A stretch of DNA of 43,845 nt, taken from an uncultured SAR116 cluster alpha proteobacterium (lineage in GTDB: Bacteria > Pseudomonadota > Alphaproteobacteria > Puniceispirillales > Marisalimonadaceae). The notes under the pieces were generated by a model. It did no database searches. It saw only the letters and a program-made list of their open reading frames with translations, and was not told where the DNA came from. The stretch lies in NCBI GenBank assembly GCA_902619615.1, contig CACNFD010000015.1:1-43845 (forward strand), written 5' to 3'. Shown in pieces: positions 6,004 to 43,273 of the stretch. The number at the start of each line of letters is the position of its first letter. Within the stretch, counting starts at the first letter, position 1. Made by a program: the position numbers and the translations under genes.

Positions 6004-7742
6004 ATTTTTTTAATGAAACTTAATAACTCACTCTTAATAACCTCATCTTGAATATGAAATCTATCTACAGCTTGGTCCCAATCAGTTTTTTCAAACTCAC
6101 TTTTTAAAACTTTATATTCTTTACTCATTTCTAAATCTTGTTTTAATTGCGACCTTGAATATAGTATTAAAGCAATAGATCTTGGATCCATCACACTTAT
6201 ATCAAAACTTAATTCAACTACTTTATTATAATCCTCTGCAAAAAAATAACCAAGAACTAAGTCTTTTACTCTGTTATCAGATGATGACTGACCTTGAGGA
6301 ATTGGGTCAAGCTCATATGCCTTATTAAGTAATTCTAAACCTTTATCAACCTTTCCTGTTCTTACTAAAACTTCACCATATCCAGATAGCACTCTTGGAT
6401 CGTTTGGAACCATATTAAATGCTTTTTTTCCATGATCTTCAGCTAAAACATAATCATGATTACTTAAGTAAACTGCAGATAACATTCTATGACACTCAAA
6501 ATCATTCTCATTTAATTCTAGAGCTTTATCTATGTTTTGTTTAGCTTCTGCAAAAATTTCTTCAGGATTCTGATCTGAAAAACCCCTAAACATTGCTTGG
6601 CCCAGAGTACAACATTTCCAAGCATATGCCTGAGCATTATTAACATCTGCTTCAATGGCCTTGTCGAAGTTTTTTAATGCCTCCTGACAAGCTTCTTTTG
6701 TAAATTTATGATGATTTTCTTTCCCTCTTAATAAATATTCATATGAACTTATATTCTCAGTAGGTTTTCTTTTTGATCTTTGCAACGAACTAATTTCAAT
6801 CTCTCCTAGTAGAGCGATTGAAATTTTTCTAACTATTTCATCCTGTAAATCAAAAATATCTTCAAGAACCCTGTCATATTTGTTACTCCAGATAATACTA
6901 TCATCTTTCGCATCACTTAATTCGATACTTATTCTTACTCTTTTACCAGAAGCACGGATGCCTCCTGTCACAATAAAATCTAAATCGAATTTCTTTGAAA
7001 ATTCTTTTATGTCTTGATTTTCATCTTTGAAATTAACAGTTGTTTGTCTTGAAAGGATTTCGAATTCACGCATCATAGAAAATTCTGTAATTAAATCCTC
7101 AACAATGCCATCTACCAAAAAACCACTATCCTCATCTTTACTGGTATTCGCAAAAGGTAAAATTGCAAATTTTGGTTTTTTATTAAGATTTTTATTTGTG
7201 ATATTTTTTATTTTACTTTTTCCATCACCAAGTAAAGAAAAAACTTCGAAATTATTTGAAATATTTTTCAACTCAATTTTACCTAGAGGATGAATGGTCT
7301 CTTCAATTTTATTATAAATTTGCTGCCTTACTACATCTGAAATTAAAATTTCTCCAACTGGTGATTGACTCTCAAGACGAGCAGCTATATTTACACCATT
7401 TCCATAAATGTTATCACCTTCAATTATGATATCATCTAAATGGATCCCTACTCTCCAAGATAATTTAGGATTTTTATCCTCTGTTAAATTCCTATCTTTA
7501 ATAGATTTTTGAAATTCAACACCCGCTTTTGTGGCTCCCACTGGACTATCAAATTCAGCTATTATTGAATCACCAGCAGTATGGAAAATTCTACCAGAAA
7601 ATTTATTTATTATTGGATCAATGATATCTCTACATTCTTTTAAACTGCTTAGTGTTTTTTCTTCTTGGGCTTCCATATGCTTACTGAAATCAACACAGTC
7701 AGTTGCTAATATAGTTGCTAATCTTCTTTTAACTTCAGACAT
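6000..7742 (-). CDS. Class III adenylate/guanylate cyclase with TolB-like and TPR domains
   Basis: 580 residues. Residues 1-175 are a class III nucleotide cyclase domain. The two metal aspartates are D15 (LATDCVDFS) and D58 (HTAGDS), and the transition-state pair is N118/R122 (GNGVNIAARLES), so it looks catalytically competent. The position that usually holds a purine-selecting Lys before TxGD is His here, so cAMP versus cGMP is open. Residues about 190-310 match the periplasmic-TolB/FlgO-like module common in such proteins (FAILPFANTS, VDGIVEDLITEFS, DFIVTGGIR). Residues about 330-560 are helical TPR-like repeats. No membrane segment is evident, suggesting a cytosolic signalling protein. It is a monocistronic, minus-strand gene. 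Confidence 0.85.
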   Translation of the reverse strand: MSEVKRRLATILATDCVDFSKHMEAQEEKTLSSLKECRDIIDPIINKFSGRIFHTAGDSIIAEFDSPVGATKAGVEFQKSIKDRNLTEDKNPKLSWRVGIHLDDIIIEGDNIYGNGVNIAARLESQSPVGEILISDVVRQQIYNKIEETIHPLGKIELKNISNNFEVFSLLGDGKSKIKNITNKNLNKKPKFAILPFANTSKDEDSGFLVDGIVEDLITEFSMMREFEILSRQTTVNFKDENQDIKEFSKKFDLDFIVTGGIRASGKRVRISIELSDAKDDSIIWSNKYDRVLEDIFDLQDEIVRKISIALLGEIEISSLQRSKRKPTENISSYEYLLRGKENHHKFTKEACQEALKNFDKAIEADVNNAQAYAWKCCTLGQAMFRGFSDQNPEEIFAEAKQNIDKALELNENDFECHRMLSAVYLSNHDYVLAEDHGKKAFNMVPNDPRVLSGYGEVLVRTGKVDKGLELLNKAYELDPIPQGQSSSDNRVKDLVLGYFFAEDYNKVVELSFDISVMDPRSIALILYSRSQLKQDLEMSKEYKVLKSEFEKTDWDQAVDRFHIQDEVIKSELLSFIKKI

Positions 7743-7846: not shown

Positions 7847-8047
7847 ATGAGTAATGATAATAAAATTAATAGTCCATTAATCTGCTTAAAAACTGGATCA
7901 AATGCAAAAATAATTAGTTATTTTGATAAAGATGAAGTTCCTTATGTTAAAATAAGTATGGAAATAGAATTCGAAGACACGAAATTTCACGTACTAAAAA
8001 CAATTCCAATAGACGATTTTAAAGATCAATTTAGTTATAATAACTAA
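7847..8047 (+). CDS. Small hypothetical protein (66 aa)
   Basis: A 66-residue frame in the gap between the cyclase gene (divergent) and gcdH (convergent, 9 bases away). It starts with ATG after a weak purine stretch (GAAG). The predicted protein is soluble, charged and probably beta-rich (KISMEIEFEDTKFHVLKTIP), without signal peptide or membrane segment. The balanced residue composition and filling of an otherwise empty slot argue for a real gene. I do not recognise the family. Confidence 0.5.
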   Translation: MSNDNKINSPLICLKTGSNAKIISYFDKDEVPYVKISMEIEFEDTKFHVLKTIPIDDFKDQFSYNN

Positions 8048-8056
8048 TACCTGTAT

Positions 8057-9298
8057 TTAAAAAAACGCTTGAATACCGGTTTGCGCTCGACCAAGGATTA
8101 ATGCGTGAACATCATGAGTACCTTCATAGGTGTTAACAGTTTCCAAATTCATCAAATGTCGCATTACCTGATATTCAGCATGAATACCGTTTCCACCGTG
8201 CATATCTCTTGAAAGTCTAGCAATTTCAAGAGCTTTTCCACAATTATTTCGCTTAATGAGTGAAATGGCTTCAGGTGCTAAATTGCCTTGATCAAATAAC
8301 CTGCCAACTTGAAGTGCAGCACCTAAACCTAATGTAATTTCAGTTTGCATATCAGCTAGTTTTTTTTGAATTAACTGCGTGGCAGCCAATGGTTTACCAA
8401 ATTGTTTTCTATCTAATGTGTACTGGCGAGCTCTATGCCAACAATCCTCAGCAGCTCCCATCACTCCCCAAGCTATGCCATATCTTGCTCTATTCAAACA
8501 ACCAAATGGTCCTTTTAGACCAGTTATATTTGGCATAAGATTTTCATCTGGAACAAAAACATTATCCATAACAATTTCACCAGTTATAGACGCTCTTAAT
8601 GATAATTTTCCTTTTATTTTTGGTGCACTTAAGCCATTCATCCCTTTTTCAAGTATAAATCCTTTAATGGCGTCCCCATGTTCTTTAGACTTAGCCCAAA
8701 CAACAAAAACATCAGCTATTGGAGAATTAGAAATCCACATTTTTGAACCAGATAAAGAGAACCCACCCTTAACTTTTGTTGCTGTAGTTTTCATAGAGCT
8801 GGGATCTGATCCAGCATCAGGTTCAGTCAATCCAAAACAACCAATAAGATCACCTGAAGCCAAACCTGGTAAATACTTTTGTCTTTGTTCTTCGCTACCG
8901 TAAGAGTAAATTGGATGCATCACTAAAGAAGATTGAACAGACATCATTGATCTATAACCTGAGTCAACTCTTTCTACCTCTTTAGCTACTAATCCATAGG
9001 ATACGTATGAAGCACCAGCACAACCATACTTTTCTGGAATAGTAATTCCCAACAAACCAAGTTCTCCCATTTCCTTAAAGATTTTTTTATCAGTTTTTTC
9101 TTCTAAAAATGCTTCCTCTACTCTTGGTAAAAGTTTGGCTTGAGCGTATTCGTGAGCAGTTGATTTAATTAGAGCTTCTTCTTCAGAAATCAAAGAATCT
9201 AATAAGAGAGGATCTTCCCAATTGAAATTGGGTTTATTCTTTGACTTTGATTTAAAATCAACTACATTTTTTTGATCTATATCAATACTTGTATCCAT
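8057..9298 (-). CDS. gcdH: Glutaryl-CoA dehydrogenase (acyl-CoA dehydrogenase family)
   Basis: 413 residues, FAD-dependent, expected to oxidise and decarboxylate glutaryl-CoA to crotonyl-CoA in lysine/tryptophan/aromatic degradation. Two residues typical of glutaryl-CoA enzymes are present with the right spacing: E109 and R116 in [19 protein letters not shown], equivalent to the Glu and Arg that contact the distal carboxylate. The catalytic Glu is in [13 protein letters not shown] near the C-terminus, and the acyl-CoA dehydrogenase signatures [13 protein letters not shown] and DMHGGNGI are clear. AAGGAT lies just upstream of the ATG, supporting the start. It is last in a minus-strand series after the TauD-like, cupin and isomerase genes, 63 bases after the isomerase stop. 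Confidence 0.93.
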
Positions 9299-34141: not shown

Positions 34142-34233
34142 GGAGGGGTGGCTGAGTGGCTGAAGGCGCCGGTTTGCTAAATCGTTAAAGGGAGCAATCC
34201 CTTTCGGGGGTTCGAATCCCCCTCCCTCCGCCA
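34142..34233 (+). tRNA. tRNA-Ser (anticodon GCU)
   Basis: Cloverleaf by eye: acceptor GGAGGGG pairs with TCCCTCC (last pair G-T), T arm GGGGG/CCCCC with loop TTCGAAT, a long class II variable arm (AAAGGGA/TCCCTTT), anticodon loop TTGCTAA, discriminator G and encoded CCA at 34231-34233. The long variable arm and GCT anticodon identify serine (AGC/AGU). The anticodon stem is weak, with a C-T mismatch at its outer pair and a G-T pair. The 3' end is the attachment site of the adjacent island. Confidence 0.95.
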
Positions 34234-34234
34234 T
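34223..34234 (+). other. Left attachment site (tRNA 3' end)
   Basis: TCCCTCCGCCAT covers the last acceptor bases, the CCA and one further base. It pairs with TCTCTCCGCCAT at 39375. Integrases of the P4 type recombine at tRNA 3' ends, leaving the tRNA intact, as here. Confidence 0.6.
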
Positions 34235-34243
34235 TAAGATAAC

Positions 34244-34278
34244 TTCCTTATGTCATACTATGTCACAAACCTAAGGAA
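34244..34278. repeat. Inverted repeat enclosing tandem TATGTCA, island left end
   Basis: TTCCTTA (34244-34250) and TAAGGAA (34272-34278) form a 7-bp inverted repeat. Between and overlapping them, TATGTCA occurs at 34249 and 34259 (10-bp period). Position 10 bases inside the left attachment site suggests recombinase or excisionase binding, or a regulatory site for the integrase gene. There is no T-run, so a terminator is unlikely. Confidence 0.35.
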
Positions 34279-34345
34279 ACACTGGAGGTTGTTGACGAAA
34301 GCTCTCTAAGTTATTTCATTATAAATCATCTTTAATCAACCAAAC

Positions 34346-34365
34346 TTGTAGACCGAGTTGTAGAC
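34346..34365 (+). repeat. TTGTAGAC pair, 12-bp period, upstream of integrase
   Basis: TTGTAGAC at 34346-34353 and 34358-34365, just before the GGAG ribosome site and ATG of the integrase. The same paired octamer with the same period is found at 39291 and 43207. It probably is an arm-type binding site of the integrase, and binding here would also repress its own gene. Confidence 0.6.
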
Positions 34366-34375
34366 TGGAGATGAC

Positions 34376-35557
34376 ATGAAAAGATTAAATGCAAAACAAA
34401 TATTAGTTTTACCAATAGGCAAATACCCTGATGGAAATGGACTTTATCTTTCAATTTACAAACCTGGAAGAGGTAAATGGAGTTTTCGATATTCCTTTAA
34501 TAAAAAAGCTAGGGAAATGGGTTTAGGTAGCTTACCAGAAGTTTCACTATTAGAGGCACGACAACATGCTTTAAGTAACAAACAATTATTAAGTAAAAAG
34601 ATTGACCCAATAGATGAAAAAAACCGAGCTGAAGTTTTAAGGCAACAGCAAAGTAAGAAATTCTCCGATATAGCTAATCTATATATTGAAACAAAGAAAA
34701 AACCTGAGTGGACAAACCCTAAAAGTGAACAACAATGGCGTAATACAATTAATACTTATGTATCACCAATCTTAGATAGAAAACCATTAAATGATATTAA
34801 TAGAGATGATATTATAAGTGTTCTTAATCCTATTTGGAGAGATAAGACTGAAACTGCCAGAAAGCTTCAACAAAGACTATTCCTCATATTTGCATTTGCC
34901 AAAATTAGAGAATGGTATACTCATGATAATCCAGCATCCTGGAAAGAACATCTCTCATTTATACTTCCAGACCCTTACTTAATAAAAAAAGTTAAACATC
35001 ACGCTTCACTTAAGTTTACTGAAGTTGCAAAATTTTATGAAGACCTATGTAAGTTTGAAATGTTGTCAGCCTATGCATTAAGGTTATTAATTTTAACAGC
35101 CACTAGGACCAAAGAAGTAATTGAGTCTCAGTTTGATGAATTTGATTTACAAAAGAAAATGTGGACTATTCCAGCTGATAAAATGAAAGTTAGAAAAAAA
35201 CATAAAGTGCCTTTATCAGATGAAGCCATTTCAATAATTGAATTGATGAGAAAAAAACATAACCATGAACATGTATTTACCAATCCTGCAACTGGTAAAC
35301 ATATATCTAATGGAGCAATGCTAATTTTCTTAAAAAAGCAATTCCCTCATCTCAAAATTACTGTTCATGGTTTCAGGTCTTCATTTAGAGATTGGGCAGA
35401 AGAAATAGGTCAATATCAACATAATGCAATAGAGTTTTGTTTGGCACACGAATTACCGAACAAAGTTGAAAAAGCATATTTAAGGTCAGACTTAATTGAT
35501 GCTAGAACAACAATTATGAATGATTGGGAAAAATATTTACTTTCTAACTTAGCTTGA
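34376..35557 (+). CDS. int: Tyrosine recombinase, P4-type integrase
   Basis: 393 residues. The N-terminal arm-binding domain (about 1-90, GKYPDGNGLYLSIYKPGRGKW, MGLGSLPEVSLLEARQHA) is the DUF4102 type; a core-binding domain spans 95-195 and the catalytic domain 205-393. Catalytic residues are present: R244 (TATRTKE), H331 and R334 (HGFRSSFRDW), a late His in LAHELP and Tyr nucleophile Y368 (KAYLRSD). It is expected to integrate and excise the island at tRNA-Ser. GGAG lies 5 bases before the ATG. It looks intact. Confidence 0.93.
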   Translation: MKRLNAKQILVLPIGKYPDGNGLYLSIYKPGRGKWSFRYSFNKKAREMGLGSLPEVSLLEARQHALSNKQLLSKKIDPIDEKNRAEVLRQQQSKKFSDIANLYIETKKKPEWTNPKSEQQWRNTINTYVSPILDRKPLNDINRDDIISVLNPIWRDKTETARKLQQRLFLIFAFAKIREWYTHDNPASWKEHLSFILPDPYLIKKVKHHASLKFTEVAKFYEDLCKFEMLSAYALRLLILTATRTKEVIESQFDEFDLQKKMWTIPADKMKVRKKHKVPLSDEAISIIELMRKKHNHEHVFTNPATGKHISNGAMLIFLKKQFPHLKITVHGFRSSFRDWAEEIGQYQHNAIEFCLAHELPNKVEKAYLRSDLIDARTTIMNDWEKYLLSNLA

Positions 35558-35626
35558 TGTTGTTTGAAATAACAGAGTATGTTAAAATGTTTAAAAATAT
35601 ATGACTTCACAATTTTTGTGGGCTAA

Positions 35627-35706
35627 AATCACGGTCAGGCGAAAACCTAAGGAGTGATTACGCGCATGTAAACATGCTAACACTTCGAAATAGATTAATA
35701 AATCTA
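35627..35706 (+). promoter_or_regulatory. Hairpin-rich leader upstream of the AlpA-like gene
   Basis: Three consecutive dyads lie in 80 bases: AATCAC/GTGATT (35627-35632 with 35654-35659, inner AGG/CCT around CGAAAA), GCATGT-AA-ACATGC (35664-35677) and TAGATT-AATA-AATCTA (35691-35706). The AlpA-like ATG follows at 35757. The stretch is richer in G+C than its flanks. It could be a structured mRNA leader, a small RNA, or clustered operators for the AlpA-like protein. Confidence 0.4.
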
Positions 35707-35756
35707 GCGGCGATGGTTCCAAACTTTTTAATTTAACTTTTAATGGGAATACGCCT

Positions 35757-35993
35757 ATGAAACCAATTTATATACCTAAAAAAGAGGTGGCTAGAATATT
35801 TAACAAGAGTGCTTCAACTGTCACTAGATGGTCTAAAGAAATTCCAGACTTTCCAAAACCTTTTCTCCTAGGACCAAATACAGTTATGTGGGATAGGATT
35901 GAAATAGAAAACTATATCAATGAGAGAAAAAAGATTAGGGGCTTTTATGGTCACAAGCCTTTAAGAGACAACAATGTCAACAAAACTCAATAA
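35757..35993 (+). CDS. AlpA-family DNA-binding protein (excisionase/regulator)
   Basis: 78 residues. A MerR/excisionase-like winged helix spans residues 5-60 (YIPKKEVARIFNKSASTVTRW, WDRIEIENYINERKK). AlpA proteins of P4-like islands act as transcription activators of the integrase or as excision factors. Its end overlaps the next gene by 20 bases. It is preceded by the hairpin-rich leader. Confidence 0.8.
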   Translation: MKPIYIPKKEVARIFNKSASTVTRWSKEIPDFPKPFLLGPNTVMWDRIEIENYINERKKIRGFYGHKPLRDNNVNKTQ

Positions 35994-36357
35994 AAATCAA
36001 CTTATTGCAGTTCATTTACTTGCCTCTGGCGTTAAAGCTTCAGTTATTGCTAAACACATTGACATAAGAGAAGAAACATTATCACGTTGGAGGCAAATTG
36101 ATGAATTTAAAGAGGCATTAGAAGAAGCTACAGAGGCTGTTTTAAGAGAAATTGATGAGACTCATAAAAATCTCTTAATTCATTCCCAGAATGTAATTAA
36201 TGAGGCCCTAAATAATGAAGAATTAGATTTATTTAAAAAAGCTAATTTAGCTCTTAGGTATATGAGTTTGATTAGAGGTAAAGATGATATAACTCAAAAG
36301 TCATCTCATAATCTTTTTAAATATGCAGAACTAGGAAAATTTAGAGTTAAAATTTAA
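35974..36357 (+). CDS. Small HTH protein, terminase-small-subunit-like or phBC6A51-like
   Basis: 127 residues. An N-terminal helix-turn-helix (about 8-45: NQLIAVHLLASGVKASVIAK then EETLSRWRQIDEF) is followed by a long helical region (50-115). The arrangement resembles phage helix-turn-helix proteins such as phBC6A51 or small terminase subunits, but no other packaging gene is present. Coupled to the AlpA-like gene by a 20-base overlap. Probably a regulator of the island; not firmly identified. Confidence 0.7.
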   Translation: MSTKLNKNQLIAVHLLASGVKASVIAKHIDIREETLSRWRQIDEFKEALEEATEAVLREIDETHKNLLIHSQNVINEALNNEELDLFKKANLALRYMSLIRGKDDITQKSSHNLFKYAELGKFRVKI

Positions 36358-36426
36358 CTATTAACAGTTCTTAATTTTGTGGTTAAAGTTGAAAAAACTA
36401 AAACTGATTTTAATTTAGCGAGAAAA

Positions 36427-36888
36427 ATGACAATGTTTAAAAAAATCACTTTATTTTCAATTTTACTCTTTGTGTTTTCAAAAAATGTAAATGCTGAGGT
36501 TGCCTTTCAAAAGGTGTATGAAATTCCAAAGATGACCGGTGCTCAAATTAAGGAGGCATATGGTGACCCAACAATAGATGTGAGAGTAGGAACAATGTCT
36601 CAAATGAATGATGCACTTAATACAGTTAGAGGTGATGGGTGGAAGTCTGGTCTAGAACAAGCTAAAACGGGAAAACTTAGATGTAATATATCATTTGCAG
36701 GATGGATGCCTTCACAAAATGAGTGGGTAAACGCAGATGTTATTTTTCAAGTCAAAGATGGAAAAGCAAGAATTACAATAAGCAATTTAAGTGTAAAGGG
36801 TCCTGGAAGAAAACAATGTGTTAATAGTATAGATGAGTTTTTAAACAAAAAATTTGCAACTTTAAAAACCTTAAATGATAAATGGTAA
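36427..36888 (+). CDS. Exported hypothetical protein
   Basis: About 153 residues from the ATG at 36427 (a second ATG follows at 36433; a GTG at 36379 would put charged residues before the signal sequence and is less likely). Signal peptide MFKKITLFSILLFVFSKNVNA with cleavage before EVAF. The mature part has two Cys (LRCNIS and RKQCVN) that could pair, and alternating beta strands. I do not recognise the family. It is island cargo just upstream of the SRA-HNH gene. Confidence 0.65.
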   Translation: MTMFKKITLFSILLFVFSKNVNAEVAFQKVYEIPKMTGAQIKEAYGDPTIDVRVGTMSQMNDALNTVRGDGWKSGLEQAKTGKLRCNISFAGWMPSQNEWVNADVIFQVKDGKARITISNLSVKGPGRKQCVNSIDEFLNKKFATLKTLNDKW

Positions 36889-36923
36889 AAGTTTGAGTAC
36901 TAATTTTTAAAGTAGGTTTTAAG

Positions 36924-37802
36924 ATGCAGTTTGGTCATATAGAAGGAATAAAAGTTGGAGACACGTTTGAATCTCGTAAAGAACTAGCGGATGCTGGTGT
37001 TCATGCTCCTTTAATGGCTGGTATATGGGGGGCACAAGAAGGTGCATATTCTATAGTATTGTCTGGTGGATATGAGGATGACATAGATGAGCTTAACTAT
37101 ATCTTATATACTGGACAAGGTGGACAGGATGCTCCAGGTGGAAAACAAATTGCAGACCAAACATTTTCTAAAGGAAACAAAGGGCTGCAATTAAGCTGTC
37201 AGTACAATCTACCAGTCAGAGTATCTAGGGGGCACCAAATAAAAAATGGCCCTCAATTTGGATATAGATATGATGGACTATATTATGTTGAGAGTTATGA
37301 AAGGATAATTGGTCAAAGAGGTTTTTATATTTGTCGCTTTCACCTACAAAGTGAAGATAGTATTAATCAACTAGAAAATAAACTAAAACCTTCTCTAAAA
37401 TCTTCTTATGAGAGAACAATTAGAGCAACCTCAACTATTAGTCGTCTTAAAAGAAATGTAAAAATAAGTGAAAATATAAAAACACTTTATGACTATAAAT
37501 GCCAAGTTTGTGGTGTTAGGCTTAATTCTCCTTCAGGACCAATCGCAATAGGCGCTCATATCAAAGGTCTTGGTCAGCCTCATAACGGACCAGATGCAAT
37601 AGAAAATATGCTTTGTCTGTGTCCTAATCATCATGACCAATTTGATTATTATTCCTATTACATTGAATCAGATAATTTTGAAATAATTGGGTTAGAAGAC
37701 TTTAAAAGTAAAAAGTTAAACATTCATCCAAGACATAAAATAGATATTGAATTTCTTAATTATCATAAAAAGAAATATTTTGAGAATAACTCATTAAAAT
37801 GA
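36924..37802 (+). CDS. SRA (YDG)-HNH fusion, putative modification-dependent restriction endonuclease
   Basis: 292 residues. Residues 1-150 are an SRA/YDG domain (GGYEDDIDELNYILYTGQGG at 48-67, YDG at 116-118), a base-flipping reader of modified cytosine. Residues 185-245 are an HNH nuclease: zinc Cys C193/C196 (CQVC), H212 in GAHIKG, and N235/H236/H237 in CLCPNHHDQFD. Proteins with this order are type IV restriction enzymes that cut DNA with 5-methyl- or 5-hydroxymethyl-cytosine. No methyltransferase is nearby, which fits a modification-dependent enzyme. It is the probable antiphage cargo of the island, and both domains look intact. Confidence 0.87.
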   Translation: MQFGHIEGIKVGDTFESRKELADAGVHAPLMAGIWGAQEGAYSIVLSGGYEDDIDELNYILYTGQGGQDAPGGKQIADQTFSKGNKGLQLSCQYNLPVRVSRGHQIKNGPQFGYRYDGLYYVESYERIIGQRGFYICRFHLQSEDSINQLENKLKPSLKSSYERTIRATSTISRLKRNVKISENIKTLYDYKCQVCGVRLNSPSGPIAIGAHIKGLGQPHNGPDAIENMLCLCPNHHDQFDYYSYYIESDNFEIIGLEDFKSKKLNIHPRHKIDIEFLNYHKKKYFENNSLK

Positions 37803-37872
37803 TTATAATATTTACTTTGGACTTACCATATTAAAATAATATTAAAAGTGATATAACAAAAGAGGAACTTAA

Positions 37873-39138
37873 ATGAAATTTTGTAAAGTAGTAATTACTG
37901 TAATTTTTATAACTACTGTTGGTACTAGCCAGGCTAGTAAGTGGGATATTTTTTCTAGTCCGAACGAAGAAGTTTTAAAATGTTTTCAAAGTAACAATCT
38001 AAATGAGAGTGAAATCGAAATACTAAAAAACGGTCGACCAGACAAAAAATCATTAAGAAAAAAAGCAAAAAAAGTTATTAAATCCTGTAAAAGTTATCTT
38101 GGAAAAAAAGTCTCTACTAAAATTGATAATAGAAAAAAAACTTCTCAAATTTTTAAAACTTCTCCTTTTGGTAAAGATTTGCAATTATTAAAATATGAAC
38201 CTAATAGTATTCAAAATGGGACGTTTTTATTAGTGGTCCCTCAAAAAAATTCATACGGTCGAGTACTAGAAATTACTAACGATGCCAAAATTATATGGCA
38301 ACATGATGGGAATAGTTCATTTGGAAGATTAGACGATGCTAAACTAACAAATGAAAACACAATCTTAATCGCTGCTGAAAAAGGAGTTTATGAGATAGAT
38401 AGAGAAGGTAAAGTAATTTGGTCTTACAAAACTAAAGTTAGTCATGATGTTGATAAATTAACGAATGGAAATATTCTTATAAATTATGCATGGGGCGCCA
38501 AAGGTAGTAAAAAAATAATAGAAGTTGATAATAACAAAAATGTTGTATGGAGTTGGGATGGTATGAAAACGCATAACGTTGAACCATTCGCTGACGCATA
38601 TGCTTCAGATTCAAAAATTTTTGGTTCCAATAAAACTTGGATACACAATAATGGTGTAACTGCACTTGAAGATGATACTTTTTTGATTTCTATGCGTGAT
38701 TTTCAAGAAATAATTTGGATAAATAGAAAGGCTGATATATTAAAAAAATATATTTTTAAGTGTTCTGCAAAAAAAAGAGCACTTTTGACTTCAGGAAAAA
38801 TAAAAGGTTGTAATCCTCACGAACCACAACAACTTCAAAATGGCAATATAGTAGTTGGTTTAAGAAACCCTAATAGAGCCATTGAATTTAATCCTGAGAC
38901 ACATGAAATTGTTTGGCAATGGCGATCTCCAAAAAGCAAAGCATACGGAACTATTAGGGATGTTGATAAATTAAAAAATGGTAATTTTATTGTTGTTACT
39001 GGAAGTCATTTACTTGAAATAAACTCAAATGGCGAAGTTGTTTTAGATATAGGTGCAAATAAATCACTAAGCCAAGACCATAGAATACTATATAAAGCTC
39101 AAAAAATATATTCTGATGGTACTTTTTCACATGATTAA
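37873..39138 (+). CDS. Exported arylsulfotransferase (ASST)-like beta-propeller protein
   Basis: 421 residues with signal peptide (KVVITVIFITTVGTSQA, cleaved near residue 20), then about 80 Lys-rich residues and a propeller from about 110 to 415. Repeating blade units are easy to see: LTNENTILIAAEKGVYEID, LTNGNILINYAWG, LQNGNIVVGLRNP and LKNGNFIVVTGSHLLEI, each ending in a VxW-type strand. The fold fits the ASST family or PQQ-like propellers; I could not confirm the ASST catalytic His residues. Ribosome site AGAGGAA precedes the ATG. It is the last island gene and is followed by a candidate terminator. Role unknown. Confidence 0.75.
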   Translation: MKFCKVVITVIFITTVGTSQASKWDIFSSPNEEVLKCFQSNNLNESEIEILKNGRPDKKSLRKKAKKVIKSCKSYLGKKVSTKIDNRKKTSQIFKTSPFGKDLQLLKYEPNSIQNGTFLLVVPQKNSYGRVLEITNDAKIIWQHDGNSSFGRLDDAKLTNENTILIAAEKGVYEIDREGKVIWSYKTKVSHDVDKLTNGNILINYAWGAKGSKKIIEVDNNKNVVWSWDGMKTHNVEPFADAYASDSKIFGSNKTWIHNNGVTALEDDTFLISMRDFQEIIWINRKADILKKYIFKCSAKKRALLTSGKIKGCNPHEPQQLQNGNIVVGLRNPNRAIEFNPETHEIVWQWRSPKSKAYGTIRDVDKLKNGNFIVVTGSHLLEINSNGEVVLDIGANKSLSQDHRILYKAQKIYSDGTFSHD

Positions 39139-39192
39139 TGAAATACTATTATGAATGATATAATAAACCTATATCATAGTTTTATCGCAAAA

Positions 39193-39232
39193 ACCCACAA
39201 AACCGAAGTCTTTGTGGGTAGTCTAATTTTTT
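39193..39232 (+). terminator. Rho-independent terminator after the beta-propeller gene
   Basis: Perfect 9-bp stem ACCCACAAA (39193-39201) with TTTGTGGGT (39211-39219), 9-base loop, followed by a T-rich stretch around 39226-39232. The stem contains ACCCACA, a heptamer also paired at 39441 and 39453, so it could alternatively be a recombinase site. Confidence 0.6.
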
Positions 39233-39290
39233 AGATAAGAGTAGCTTTTAACATCAAGACTTTTTCAAATCTAAACTAAATTAAAGTATG

Positions 39291-39357
39291 TTGTAGACTA
39301 ATTTGTAGACTGAATAAATATTACTCTATAAAATGTAAAGAAATCAGATGATTAAAA
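39291..39357 (+). repeat. 67-bp direct repeat, copy 1 (contains TTGTAGAC pair)
   Basis: Ungapped match to 43207-43273 with 59 of 67 bases equal. It begins with TTGTAGAC at 39291 and 39303 (12-bp period) and ends with ATCAGATGATTAAAA. It lies 17 bases inside the right attachment site, where an integrase arm site would be expected. Confidence 0.8.
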
Positions 39358-39374
39358 TGAAACAGTGGGGAAAT

Positions 39375-39386
39375 TCTCTCCGCCAT
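39375..39386 (+). other. Right attachment site of the island
   Basis: TCTCTCCGCCAT matches the tRNA-Ser 3' end at 34223-34234 in 11 of 12 bases. Upstream T-arm sequence is not conserved, so the shared core is short. Confidence 0.5.
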
Positions 39387-39590: not shown

Positions 39591-40481
39591 TCAACTAAGG
39601 TGTCTTTTTATTGCATTTATAAATAACTTTACTTTAATTGGAAGATATCTTCTATCAGGATAAACCGCATATACACTTTTTTCTGGCAATAATGTAAAAT
39701 TAGGAAGTAAAGTTATTAATTCACCAGTTTTGATTTTATCTTTACAAAATACTTCTGGAAGCAAGCAATACCCAATACCTTCAATTGTAGCTTTAAGCAT
39801 TAAAGCTAATGTATTAGTCGTAAGAATAGGATTTGTATTAATTGTTATATCTTCTTTGGTATTTTTGTTTTTAAAACTTAAACTATATGGTGAACTAGAA
39901 TTTTTATAATTTATTGAAGGCATTTTGATTAAATCCTCTGGGTTTGATGGCTCTCCATATTTATTTATAAATCCTGGACTTGCACAAATATATGCAGGAA
40001 AATTACAAATCCTCCTAGCAATTAAACCAGAGTCTTTTAATTTACCAATACGAATTACCAGATCGTAACCTTCTTCTATTACATTTATAAACTTGTCATC
40101 AAAATCTACGTCTAATTTAACATCTGGATAATCTTTTGAGTAATCAGCTATTACATTTACTAAAAATCTTTCTCCAAATGCCATAGGTGCATTAATTCGT
40201 AATTTTCCTGAAGGATGCTCAAGACCTTTAGTAATTTTTTTTATAACACCAGTAATTTCCTCTTCGCTCCTAGTGAGGGTTTCATATAACTGTTCTCCAG
40301 CGTCAGTTAATGTAACCACTCTTGTGGTTCTGTTAAATAGAACTAATTGTAAACGGTCTTCTAAAGCTTTTACTTGTTTACTTACCGCAGCCCCAGATAT
40401 TCCAAGTTTATTAGCTGCTTTCGCAAAACTTTTATGTTTTGAAACCTCTATCATCACATCAAAACTATTTTGAAAAACCAT
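39591..40481 (-). CDS. LysR-family transcriptional regulator of the doxX-pirin module
   Basis: 296 residues. N-terminal winged helix (VMIEVSKHKSFAKAANKLGI, GAAVSKQVKALEDRL) and a CrgA-type effector domain (90-290, GYDLVIRIGKLKDSGLIARR). It is divergent from doxX with a 102-base gap holding a LysR-like T-N11-A dyad. The arrangement implies that it controls the doxX-pirin-reductase-YCII genes and senses an electrophile or quinone (inference). Confidence 0.9.
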   Translation of the reverse strand: MVFQNSFDVMIEVSKHKSFAKAANKLGISGAAVSKQVKALEDRLQLVLFNRTTRVVTLTDAGEQLYETLTRSEEEITGVIKKITKGLEHPSGKLRINAPMAFGERFLVNVIADYSKDYPDVKLDVDFDDKFINVIEEGYDLVIRIGKLKDSGLIARRICNFPAYICASPGFINKYGEPSNPEDLIKMPSINYKNSSSPYSLSFKNKNTKEDITINTNPILTTNTLALMLKATIEGIGYCLLPEVFCKDKIKTGELITLLPNFTLLPEKSVYAVYPDRRYLPIKVKLFINAIKRHLS

Positions 40482-40488
40482 GTATTAT

Positions 40489-40501
40489 TAACCAATTGTT
40501 A
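40489..40501. promoter_or_regulatory. Candidate LysR operator (T-N11-A dyad)
   Basis: TAAC-CAATT-GTTA, a perfect 4-bp dyad with the T-N11-A form of LysR sites, 7 bases upstream of the lysR ATG in the divergent region. Local AT richness makes chance occurrence possible. Confidence 0.4.
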
Positions 40502-40583
40502 TTAATATAATAACTTTTAAACATATTAACATTTTATAATCAATAATATATTTACACCATGTAAATTATTAATGGAGATATAA

Positions 40584-41027
40584 ATGTCAAATTCAAACTC
40601 AAAAACAAATGATCAATCATGGGGATTAAGTATTTTAAGAATTCATTTAGGAATAATTTTACTTGCCCATGGATGGCTAAAAATATCTGTTTTCACTATA
40701 GCTGGCACAGTCGGTTATTTTGCAAGTCTTGGGCTACCAAGTTTTTTTGCTTATTTAGTCATATTTGGCGAAATCATAGGTGGTATAACATTAATTTTAG
40801 GAATACAAACACGTCTTACAGCTTTGTTCTGTTTGCCAATCTTAATTGGAGCAACATTTGTTCACTTAAATAATGGTTGGCTTTTTTCAGCTGAGGGTGG
40901 CGGATGGGAATTTCCAGCATCTTTATCTATTATAGCACTTGCCACTATCTTTATGGGTTCTGGTAATAGAATAAATTTAAAGTTTAATCCTTTGAATACA
41001 TTTCTTCCAACTCAACTTCAAAATTAA
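40584..41027 (+). CDS. DoxX-family membrane protein
   Basis: 147 residues with four hydrophobic helices (around 17-40, 50-75, 80-98 and 112-130). GIILLAHGWLKI and FGEIIGGITLILGIQTRLTAL are DoxX features. The family is linked to quinone or thiol redox balance in the membrane. GGAG precedes the ATG. It is first gene of the plus-strand module and is followed by a strong hairpin that may limit read-through into the pirin gene. Confidence 0.87.
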   Translation: MSNSNSKTNDQSWGLSILRIHLGIILLAHGWLKISVFTIAGTVGYFASLGLPSFFAYLVIFGEIIGGITLILGIQTRLTALFCLPILIGATFVHLNNGWLFSAEGGGWEFPASLSIIALATIFMGSGNRINLKFNPLNTFLPTQLQN

Positions 41028-41043
41028 AGCTTAACTATCATTT

Positions 41044-41068
41044 GGGACAAATTAATTTTGTCCCTTTT
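41044..41068 (+). terminator. Rho-independent terminator/attenuator between doxX and pirin
   Basis: Perfect 8-bp stem GGGACAAA (41044-41051) with TTTGTCCC (41057-41064), 5-base loop, followed directly by TTTT. Placed 16 bases after the doxX stop and 30 before the pirin start, so it probably makes doxX the most abundant transcript or ends it. Confidence 0.8.
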
Positions 41069-41098
41069 ATTAAATTATAAATTAAAAGGAGATAAATT

Positions 41099-41803
41099 AT
41101 GATTACTCATCACAAATTTGAAAATCTTGGAGGAGCCAATCATGGATGGCTGAATGCTAAGCATCATTTTAGCTTTGCTAACTACTATGATCCACAAAAA
41201 TTATGCCATGGAGAATTAATGGTAATTAATGATGATAGAATTGCCCCTAATACAGGTTTTGATACACATCCACATCAGAATATGGAGATTATCACATACG
41301 TTCGCAAAGGAGCTATTACACACAAAGATAATAAAGGTAATCAAGGTAGGACTACTGCAGGAAATGTTCAAGTTATGAGTGCCGGAACCGGGATATATCA
41401 TTCAGAGTTTAATTTGGAAAATGAAGAAACTAATATTTATCAGATTTGGATAAAGCCTAAAACAGTTGGTATTGAACCTGAATGGAATATGGCTGAATTC
41501 CCCAAAGAACCAGTTGAAGATTCTTTGCAACTATTAGTTTCAGGAGACAAAACAGCCCCCCTAAACATAAATCAAGATGCCAGAATTTATACTGGCAGAT
41601 TGAACAAAGGTAAAAAAATAACACACAATGTGAATGGTAAAGCTTATGTTCTAATATCTGAGGGAAATATTGACGTTAACGGTAATAAAACTGAAAAAGG
41701 AGATGGGCTATCTATTTCAGACGAAACAACATTAGAATTTAAAGCATTGAATAATTCTGAGATTCTCATAATTGAAGTGCCTGGTAAAGAAAATGCACGT
41801 TAA
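41099..41803 (+). CDS. Pirin-family bicupin protein
   Basis: 234 residues. N-terminal cupin with metal ligands in FDTHPHQNMEIITYVRKG and AGTGIYHSEFN (three His and Glu); a second, degenerate cupin fills 150-230. Bacterial pirins of this type (YhhW-like) can oxidise quercetin-like flavonols and respond to redox state. AAAGGAG precedes the ATG. Neighbours DoxX and FMN reductase indicate a role in electrophile or quinone detoxification. Confidence 0.9.
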   Translation: MITHHKFENLGGANHGWLNAKHHFSFANYYDPQKLCHGELMVINDDRIAPNTGFDTHPHQNMEIITYVRKGAITHKDNKGNQGRTTAGNVQVMSAGTGIYHSEFNLENEETNIYQIWIKPKTVGIEPEWNMAEFPKEPVEDSLQLLVSGDKTAPLNINQDARIYTGRLNKGKKITHNVNGKAYVLISEGNIDVNGNKTEKGDGLSISDETTLEFKALNNSEILIIEVPGKENAR

Positions 41804-41881
41804 CTCTTAAGTACTATCTGGATGAGTTTTTCTTATTAAATAACTATCTTTTAAACCTATTTTTACTAATGGAGATAAAAA

Positions 41882-42433
41882 ATGAAAAAAAATATATTAA
41901 TTATTGGCGGAAGCCTGCGAGCAAAGTCTTTTAACAAATATCTGGCATCAAATTTAATTGAAATTGGAAAGGAAAAATTTAATTTTGAAATATTTTCTGA
42001 TTTTAATCTCCTGCCCCATTATAACACAGATGATCACAATCAAGATAATTGGCCAAATACCTTATTAGAATTAGAAGATAAAATAAGAAAAGCTGATGGA
42101 GTAATATTTGTAACACCTGAGTATAACTTTTCAGTACCAGGTTACTTAAAAAATTGTATTGATTGGATTTCTAGATTACCTAACCAGCCTCTAGACAGAA
42201 AACCAGTTTGTATACAATCTGCTTCTTTAGGACCTCTTGGTGGGGCTAGAGTTCAGTATCATTTAAGACAAATATTAGTATTTTTAAATGCCAAGGTAAT
42301 GAATAAACATGAAATATTTGTTACATTTGCAAAGCAAAAATTCGATGAAGGCTCTGGTAAATTAACAGATGATATAACAGTTGACTTTATAGGAAAACAA
42401 CTTGATGCTTTTTATGATTTCATTGACGAATAG
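41882..42433 (+). CDS. NAD(P)H-dependent FMN reductase (ChrR/YieF type)
   Basis: 183 residues with flavodoxin-like fold. The phosphate loop is GGSLRAKSFN, and VTPEYNFSVPGYLKNCIDWISR is the conserved isoalloxazine-binding loop. It reduces quinones, azo compounds or chromate by two electrons using FMN. GGAG precedes the ATG. It is between the pirin and YCII genes. Confidence 0.9.
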   Translation: MKKNILIIGGSLRAKSFNKYLASNLIEIGKEKFNFEIFSDFNLLPHYNTDDHNQDNWPNTLLELEDKIRKADGVIFVTPEYNFSVPGYLKNCIDWISRLPNQPLDRKPVCIQSASLGPLGGARVQYHLRQILVFLNAKVMNKHEIFVTFAKQKFDEGSGKLTDDITVDFIGKQLDAFYDFIDE

Positions 42434-42448
42434 CATAAGGACTAGAAA

Positions 42449-42841
42449 ATGAGCGAACCTAAGATTACAAAACAAGATGTTTTAAATGCTTCAAGCGAAA
42501 TGCTTAATAAGGATTTGTATGTTGTGTTTACAAAGCCAATTAATGGAATGATCCCTGTTATGGAAAATCTAGAAGACCATCTAAAATTTCAAGTTTCATT
42601 AGAAAAACAAGGAATTATGTTTGGAGCAGGGCCATTTTGGGAAGATAATGAAATTGACTGGAATGGAGAAGGAATGGTTATCATAAGAGCAAATTCTTTT
42701 GATCAAGCCAAAGAGATAGCCAGTTCCGACCCTATGCACAAGTCAGGCGCAAGAAGCTTTACAATTAGGCCATGGTTACTTAACGAGGGTAACATTCAAG
42801 TAACTCTGGATTACTCAACAGGGAAATTTAAGTTGAAATAA
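42449..42841 (+). CDS. YCII-domain protein
   Basis: 130 residues with a ferredoxin-like YCII fold: VVFTKPINGM, the His in LEDHLKFQVSLEKQGIMFGAGP, and the Asp-Pro-Met-His ASSDPMHKSGARSF with the putative active His. The family is thought to be enzymatic, function unknown. 15 bases after the reductase stop and so probably co-transcribed. Confidence 0.87.
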   Translation: MSEPKITKQDVLNASSEMLNKDLYVVFTKPINGMIPVMENLEDHLKFQVSLEKQGIMFGAGPFWEDNEIDWNGEGMVIIRANSFDQAKEIASSDPMHKSGARSFTIRPWLLNEGNIQVTLDYSTGKFKLK

Positions 42842-43206: not shown

Positions 43207-43273
43207 TTGTAGACTAAATTGTAGACTGAATAATTATGAACCTATAAAATCTAATTAAATCAGATGATTAAAA
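43207..43273 (+). repeat. 67-bp direct repeat, copy 2 (contains TTGTAGAC pair)
   Basis: 59 of 67 bases match 39291-39357 without gaps. TTGTAGAC is at 43207 and 43219. It ends 16 bases before the pncA start, so it probably overlaps the pncA promoter region. No tRNA-end-like sequence follows this copy. Confidence 0.8.

Follow-up and report, generated by a model that had tools for sequence, protein, structure and literature searches.

A TagI-like endonuclease, built of an SRA domain and an HNH domain, is likely to serve as the defence cargo of a phage satellite seated at a tRNA-Ser gene of a SAR116 bacterium, where it would act against DNA with modified cytosines. The window, by which we mean the whole stretch of DNA analysed (43,845 nucleotides of the forward strand of contig CACNFD010000015.1, assembly GCA_902619615.1, from an uncultured SAR116 cluster alphaproteobacterium), holds the gene within a 5.2 kb island (34225-39386) of six genes with one repeat pair at each end. 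Judged by its sequence, the 292-residue enzyme is a new member within the known SRA-HNH family, and its setting is more interesting than the enzyme itself. The features on which the account draws are the following.

34142..34233, + strand: tRNA-Ser(gct), the gene at which the island is integrated (ARAGORN; sister loci)
34225..34234, + strand: putative left att core CCTCCGCCAT, the 3' end of the tRNA, recurring at 39377-39386 with one mismatch
34346..34365, + strand: left arm-type pair TTGTAGAC-N4-TTGTAGAC (motif search; role from position)
34376..35557, + strand: tyrosine integrase (Pfam Phage_integrase, Phage_int_M and Arm-DNA-bind_3; phrog_1 integrase, E 6.1e-43)
35757..35993, + strand: AlpA-like regulator/excisionase (Pfam Phage_AlpA exactly at the cut-off, 21 bits; phrog_66, E 9.7e-7)
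35974..36357, + strand: protein resembling terminase small subunits (TerS-like), the distinguishing mark of the island family (best PHROG model phrog_7344, a terminase small subunit, E 7.6e-10)
36427..36888, + strand: small exported protein, a passenger (export read from the N-terminus by us)
36924..37802, + strand: SRA-HNH endonuclease, TagI-like, predicted to be modification-dependent, 292 aa (Pfam, phmmer, alignment, model)
36930..37352, + strand: SRA domain (SAD_SRA), residues 3-143 (Pfam)
37500..37664, + strand: HNH nuclease domain (HNH_2), residues 193-247 (Pfam)
37873..39138, + strand: arylsulfotransferase-like protein, a second passenger, 3' of the SRA-HNH gene (Arylsulfotrans domain in Pfam, 56.4 bits against a cut-off of 24.2, E 3.3e-15)
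39291..39310, + strand: right arm-type pair (motif search; right-end alignment of five islands)
39377..39386, + strand: putative right att core TCTCCGCCAT, a 10-base echo of the tRNA end with one mismatch (right-end alignment)
43207..43270, + strand: second, decayed right end of a similar island, arm pair kept and core lost (motif search; right-end alignment)

The SRA-HNH endonuclease

The SRA-HNH reading frame begins with ATG and is free of internal stops, and Pfam recognises in its product both SAD_SRA (E 4e-46; 156.9 bits, cut-off 30.7) and HNH_2 (E 1.5e-9; 38 bits, cut-off 21). The closest solved protein is TagI of Thermocrispum agreste (PDB 6ghs), with which residues 2-284 align in a phmmer search of PDB sequences (E 8.9e-59). 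An AlphaFold model of the protein (pLDDT 91.9; pTM 0.58, the mutual placement of the two domains not being fixed) returns the same structure as its top Foldseek match (E 2.2e-28, 38% identity, 289 columns). The earlier note, made from the letters of the DNA, had proposed an intact SRA and HNH fusion within 292 residues, and the Pfam domains, the TagI alignment and the AlphaFold/Foldseek comparison all bear it out; at the level of sequence, chance resemblance to TagI is ruled out. PADLOC yields weak matches, in the HNH region only (best ZorE, E 0.00012; mREase_IV, E 0.039).

TagI forms the SRA-HNH family together with ScoA3IV and TbiR51I, and the window protein has the same domain order, pocket, H-N-H residues and metal-binding Asp. 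It differs from TagI in being 38% identical by structural alignment, in its CxxH zinc half and its Met, Pro and Tyr replacements, and in residing on a small integrase-bearing island. TagI itself cuts DNA with 5-methylcytosine (5mC) or 5-hydroxymethylcytosine (5hmC) but leaves DNA with glucosylated 5hmC uncut, and in plaque assays it attenuates T4gt (PMC6212794). The natural target of TagI was left somewhat unclear by its authors, whose suggestions include phage DNA with sparse methylation that comes from C5-methylase-bearing hosts (PMC6212794).

Residues were mapped for the window protein and 68 relatives (69 rows), with TagI numbering carried over through the phmmer alignment and residue roles in TagI as given in PMC6212794. 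The alignment (A3) goes back to 85 candidate stretches. Seventy-nine were clean, 66 of them used and 13 omitted by choice; the other six, in the form in which they were cut out, contained a stop or had a broken frame, and one of them (L041) was used after trimming. The alignment leaves out the relatives in genomes G140 and G387 (L016, L017). The flipped-base pocket is kept (I34, Y50, D53, Y62, T63 and G66, equivalent to TagI I38, Y55, D58, Y67, T68 and G71), as are the catalytic residues H212, N228, H237 and D241 (TagI H229, N245, H254 and D258), D224 also being mapped among the residues of catalysis. The zinc ligands C193, C196, C233 and H236 are likewise kept, the zinc half reading CxxH where TagI has CxxD; CxxH is a variant named for the family in PMC6212794. 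Across the 69 rows D53, Y62, C193, C196, N228 and C233 are invariant. With pocket, catalytic and zinc residues kept, the protein should bind a flipped modified cytosine and cut. The thumb residue Q35 of TagI is replaced by Met31, H33 by Pro29 and the dimer-interface residue N259 by Tyr242, so that sequence-context preference or activity may differ from that of TagI. At the thumb position Met occurs in 11 of the 69 rows; within the protein's own clade of 11 rows it does so in eight, which argues for a conserved state and not for decay. The reading of the gene as a restriction enzyme of the SRA-HNH type, a prediction also made earlier, is supported by whole-length homology to TagI and by the kept pocket and catalytic residues.

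Architecture of the island

From their position we infer the arm and core roles of the repeats that bound the island. The window holds six single TTGTAGAC motifs where 1.04 would be expected. When the islands of the window and of the sister loci L163, L165, L172 and L173 are compared at their right ends, all five can be aligned between the arm pair and the core position and diverge beyond; the core sequence itself varies among the five, and its distance past the arm pair is constant. An exact echo of the tRNA end of at least nine bases was found at 4 of 18 tRNA-Ser loci (the window, L166, L182 and, doubtfully, L168); some of the stretches stop short of the right end of the island. Virion structural genes were found neither among the open reading frames nor among the domain matches of 34225-39386 (ORF list, Pfam, PHROGs), the same three sources revealed no recognisable gene for replication or capsid remodelling in it, and no primase match occurs among its six genes (Pfam, PHROGs).

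At 43207-43270, with the arm pair kept and the core lost, an older island probably once sat behind the present one. Between this decayed end and the right end of the island lies a LysR-DoxX-pirin-FMN reductase-YCII-like cassette (39591-42841; the names are our own reading), which recurs in genome G028 (L160) at 93.6-98.6% identity beside a TerS-like gene and may thus itself be cargo. At another locus (L172:842-930) the integrase is preceded by one arm motif and a core that resembles att, with no tRNA detected, so that this island appears to be placed behind the right end of another, and tandem stacking of islands may occur. The window's own genome has two further arm-type pairs, with 0 and 1 mismatch (G000:C40:2497-2516, L005; G000:C11:6924-6943, L006), perhaps relics of other islands.

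The G+C content is 31% at 36-38 kb, in keeping with the AT-richness remarked on in the earlier note, and the marine host supposed there is confirmed by kinship to the SAR116 cluster (a genome of the same genus, G033, has an SRA-HNH protein 71% identical to that of the window). That the gene is island cargo, a further proposal of that note, is well supported by the tRNA-Ser gene, the integrase, the end repeats, the short tRNA-end echo and the sister islands with other restriction cargo. A part in the defence had also been considered for the exported gene at 36427, the start of which is an ATG within a longer reading frame whose longest form begins with GTG at 36379. The suggested check was whether it always travels with the SRA-HNH gene, and it does not: it occurs in 1 of 136 genomes of the order, the window's own. 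No relatives were found in viral contigs (close-relative search) or among the reading frames of the loci of SRA-HNH relatives (L035-L123). With no relative there or in the other 135 genomes, the candidate defence partner was rejected.

Sister islands and their cargo

The TerS-like protein occurs in 26 of the 136 SAR116-order genomes, in some of them at several places (five in G021, four in G034). Twenty-eight of the 33 foreign places were fetched as sister loci, five short or broken ones being omitted. The order tRNA-Ser, integrase, TerS-like gene recurs in 16 of the 28, with AlpA in between in 15, and the anticodon of the tRNA-Ser is gct, gga or tga. Two loci (L161, L172) have integrase and TerS-like gene with no tRNA detected, and in two (L158, L166) the integrase stands at the far end. 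No integrase was found within the stretch examined in L155-L157, L159, L160 and L164, and in L167 and L170 the TerS-like frame went unrecognised at the ORF-calling step.

The cargo that follows the TerS-like gene differs between islands. It comprises 83 reading frames of at least 120 aa, some perhaps past the island end; 20 large ones were scanned with PADLOC and Pfam, and five smaller ones with PHROGs. Type III restriction-modification genes are found in L172, McrB-like AAA and McrC-like proteins in L165 and L173, an IIG-like or helicase-type restriction protein with an Mrr_cat_2 domain in L168, and a NERD-helicase with a TmtA-like protein in L181. The cargo of L163 is IIG-like in PADLOC, with only ResIII and a helicase seen by Pfam. 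Other cargo consists of trypsin- or caspase-domain proteins (L155, L158, L174, L177), domains that do not prove a defence role, of a transporter and one protein without assignment (L156), and of proteins likewise without assignment (L164, L166). PADLOC gave no match for the two L156 proteins, those of L164 and L166, the McrC-like proteins of L165 and L173 or the caspase-domain protein of L174. The five smaller frames gave an ADP-ribosylglycohydrolase (L174), one weak match and, in three cases, none.

Of the islands whose right arm pair is exact, all five (the window, L163, L165, L172 and L173) carry restriction-type genes, and in three of them the type depends on modified cytosine (SRA-HNH once, McrBC-like twice). 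With other restriction systems in the same place of sister islands, the SRA-HNH gene is most likely one among several anti-phage cargoes that can replace each other.

The TerS-like protein and the satellite question

The three best PHROG matches of the TerS-like protein are all models of terminase small subunits, while Pfam gives transposase-type helix-turn-helix matches below the cut-off only. Its structural model, made with an alignment (A2) of 24 sequences out of the 34 places of the family, has a helix-turn-helix followed by long helices (pLDDT 82.6). Foldseek places 2ao9 of phage phBC6A51 first (E 0.058) and Sf6 TerS at rank 7, ranks 2 and 4 being taken by TetR regulators. By VIA, the top match and the next-best whole-model match are the phBC6A51 and Sf6 TerS proteins, with Z scores of 8.4 over 91 residues (2ao9) and 6.0 over 95, an unrelated synthetase reaching 5.7. 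The assignment by homology is thus of moderate strength; for a mostly helical model the fold scores, too, are moderate.

Searches for close relatives of the integrase and of the TerS-like protein found none in IMG/VR viral contigs. In the search with the TerS-like family, the sole relative on a viral contig is L192 (36% identity over residues 5-61). This relative, which matches the N-terminal part, is followed at once by a large-terminase-like and then by a portal-like frame, both labels being our reading of the sequences, on a contig read as phage. The PHROG matches, the fold and the L192 context together favour a small terminase, and hence a satellite; the window island is probably a phage satellite, which a helper phage might package.

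The second SAR116 copy of the SRA-HNH gene, in G033, has as neighbours a different small terminase (Terminase_2, 27.5 bits against a cut-off of 26.1), a PD-(D/E)XK protein and a DUF2130 protein, and no integrase match was found on its contig. Both copies thus have a terminase-small-subunit-like gene within 2 kb, of differing families.

Distribution of the SRA-HNH family

Full-length SRA-HNH proteins were found in 2 of the 136 genomes of the order (the window's own and G033; four other matches are partial), and the gene is accordingly rare among these islands. Among 398 sampled genomes of the phylum three have one, the window's own included, and 17 other matches are partial. A species-level scan confirmed 91 loci, 80 of which were kept. 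In the tree the window protein falls in an 11-row clade (support 100/100) with members from SAR116, SAR11, SAR86, SAR324 and Prochlorococcus and one Rhodospirillales MAG whose title names no habitat. The spread of this clade over distant plankton groups points to gene transfer and a common pressure from modified-cytosine DNA.

Six near-full-length relatives lie on IMG/VR contigs, in three of which (L115, L118, L119) a frame that we read as integrase-like stands within two or three genes of the SRA-HNH gene. Phage genomes gave three records with partial matches only, and plasmids 18 records with a match, three of them at 80% coverage or more. No relatives of the island's integrase, AlpA or TerS-like protein were found by phmmer among the reading frames near SRA-HNH relatives in L035-L123. 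In all, six window proteins besides the SRA-HNH protein, five of them from the island, gave a single match among those frames, a LysR in L053, and the idea of an always-mobile gene was not upheld. Among the matches listed, some marine relatives, L035 and L041 included, are flanked by frames that we read as housekeeping-like.

The SAR11 proteins have an additional N-terminal stretch of about 85-110 residues (L037:7740-8000, L038:7731-8000, L041:5980-6309), which in L037 and L038 resembles a winged helix by our reading, with no Pfam match, and could be a second modification sensor. In Prochlorococcus (L043) a tRNA-Ser(gct) at 7595-7687 lies just upstream of the SRA-HNH gene at 7995-8885; no relative of the window integrase was found in the stretch fetched.

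Cytosine methylases and the shared tRNA slot

The earlier note had remarked on the lack of a methyltransferase nearby. This holds and, for C5-cytosine methylases, the class searched, extends to the whole genome, in which PF00145 finds no match (completeness 99.03); as a control, the same model matches in 10 of 14 known genomes. Matches occur in 34 of the order's 136 genomes, in 30 of these above the cut-off; some neighbours thus probably make 5mC, which this host probably does not. As proof of self-tolerance the lack of a C5-methylase was dropped, since 106 of the 136 genomes likewise have none above the cut-off.

In the 58 genomes of the family, the PF00145 places above the cut-off were merged by eye into 19 loci, among which those of G017 and G022 are short pieces of some 60 residues that hardly exceed the cut-off, and that of G004 and part of that of G052 hold stops. 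Seven of the 19 have an integrase homologue at an edge-to-edge distance of 0.9-4.7 kb, with about 0.2 expected within 10 kb under a binomial that takes the loci as independent; some may share descent. Fifteen methylase stretches were fetched from the 34 matching genomes. In two genus-mates (L197 in G026 and L207 in G032) the flanks identify the slot of the window island, with the HI0933-like gene (94% and 99%), LysR (97.8%) and the tRNA-Ser(gct), after which come a different integrase and a C5-methylase. Writers and cutters of 5mC thus use one site. The integrases of the writer loci are 35-43% identical to that of the window, and no TerS-like match was found in the 15 stretches. The L197 methylase is followed by frames of 640, 289 and 235 aa in what resembles a multi-gene restriction operon (L197:9426-13917), and that of L207 has a Vsr-like neighbour by our reading. 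In the four genomes where a type IV cytosine-modification system was seen (G000, G033, G021 and G046; the survey of McrBC was non-exhaustive) there is no C5-methylase match, which proves nothing, as the chance probability of such a lack in all four is about 0.37.

Proposed function and alternatives

In the mechanism that we propose, the SRA domain would flip 5-methyl- or 5-hydroxymethylcytosine out of incoming DNA, whereupon dimeric HNH domains would nick or cut near the flipped base, the host's own DNA being spared if the host makes no 5mC. Upon infection by a helper phage the island would leave the chromosome and use the TerS-like protein for its packaging; between infections it would guard its host from rival phages or elements whose cytosines are modified. 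The analysis establishes the sequence family, the kept active-site residues, the limits of the island and the recurrence of the module with changing restriction cargo. Cutting, modification dependence, dimerisation, a 5mC-free host, an anti-phage effect and packaging by a helper are all what we infer. Phages with 5mC or 5hmC, the target named in the earlier note, are possible; that the signal is 5mC set by the C5-methylases of sibling bacteria is at least as plausible.

That the SRA-HNH protein is no defence nuclease, and is instead degenerate or regulatory, for example an inactive reader of modified DNA, is very improbable: Met for the thumb Gln and Tyr for the interface Asn would fit such a loss, but pocket, catalytic and zinc residues are intact, as is the reading frame, and the protein is 71% identical to the G033 copy. 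The island could also be an ordinary genomic island whose TerS-like protein is a DNA-binding regulator and which spreads by host conjugation, transformation or generalised transduction. We hold this to be somewhat unlikely, in recognition that small helix-turn-helix proteins resemble many regulators, that unrelated chains of this fold abound in the fold lists, that Pfam gives only transposase-type matches below the cut-off, and that no replication or capsid-remodelling gene was recognised. Against it count the terminase models that make up the three best PHROG matches, the lead of phBC6A51 and Sf6 TerS in VIA, and the position of the L192 relative just upstream of large-terminase-like and portal-like frames.

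A reading on the unlikely side, yet a real possibility in so far as writers and cutters contend for one site, keeps the nuclease and changes its adversary. The enzyme would mainly exclude rival islands or phages marked with 5mC, its main effect being competition for the tRNA-Ser site and not defence against phages with hypermodified genomes. The closeness of 7 of 19 C5-methylase loci to integrases, the presence of L197 and L207 in the window's own slot and the lack of a C5-methylase in the four type IV genomes speak for it, but the last has the chance probability given above, the writer integrases are distant and unaccompanied by a TerS-like match in the 15 stretches, and the writer islands were recognised from their flanks, without delimited far ends, some of the loci being fragments or holding stops. 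Defence cargo of a satellite, directed against modified-cytosine DNA, remains our preferred reading. In its widest form, which we offer tentatively and consider unlikely, the contest would set two classes of integrase islands against each other at the 3' end of the SAR116 tRNA-Ser(gct), writers with a C5-methylase and, on TerS-bearing satellites, cutters with SRA-HNH or McrBC, the cutters mainly targeting writer-marked DNA of phages and rival islands.

Relation to known systems

Satellites with defence hotspots are known (PMC9122126, PMC11389934). The PICMI satellites of Vibrionaceae resemble the window island in being small and marine, with an integrase, AlpA and defence genes in a variable place (PMC10803314), and differ in that the window island has a TerS-like gene, a tRNA-Ser site in place of fis and no primase found. 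In the model of that paper int, alpA and prim are mandatory, and no terS homologue occurs in the PICMI studied there (PMC10803314); with no primase match in its six genes, the window island falls outside this definition (int, alpA and prim). P4-like satellites and P2-like phages are likewise integrase-bearing with a variable anti-phage cassette (PMC9122126), a likeness by description; in the window island neither a capsid nor a replication gene of the P4 type was recognised.

Marine bacteria also harbour tycheposons and VEIMEs (PMC11389934; for tycheposon features, PMC10872708), which share with the window island a flanking tRNA, a tyrosine recombinase, cargo and marine bacterial hosts, whereas the cargo of the window island is of the restriction type. 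The tycheposon marks of a tRNA at the border and a tyrosine recombinase are both present in the window island, which is not classed as a tycheposon here. Among the papers listed in searches of the open literature, judged by title and start of abstract, none concerned the SAR116 island family; the primary VEIME and tycheposon papers lie outside this scope.

McrBC, whose relatives fill the cargo position in L165 and L173, shares with SRA-HNH enzymes a restriction that depends on modified cytosine, and the proteins are unrelated (an AAA/GTPase subunit with McrC). PcaRCI and PcaRCII of Pectobacterium (PMC8989522) likewise set a mobile, methylating restriction-modification system against a methylation-dependent endonuclease; as that paper describes them, both reside in one genome with silencing, whereas the SAR116 writer and cutter occur in different genomes, in one slot.

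Implications

The present findings give SRA-HNH nucleases a concrete setting in ocean picoplankton, on a family of small mobile islands that swap restriction systems. If the island is a satellite, modification-dependent restriction would be tied to the conflict of phages and satellites in a marine lineage; and if the contest of writers and cutters at the tRNA-Ser(gct) is true, occupancy of this site would decide which 5mC-marked DNA a lineage can accept.
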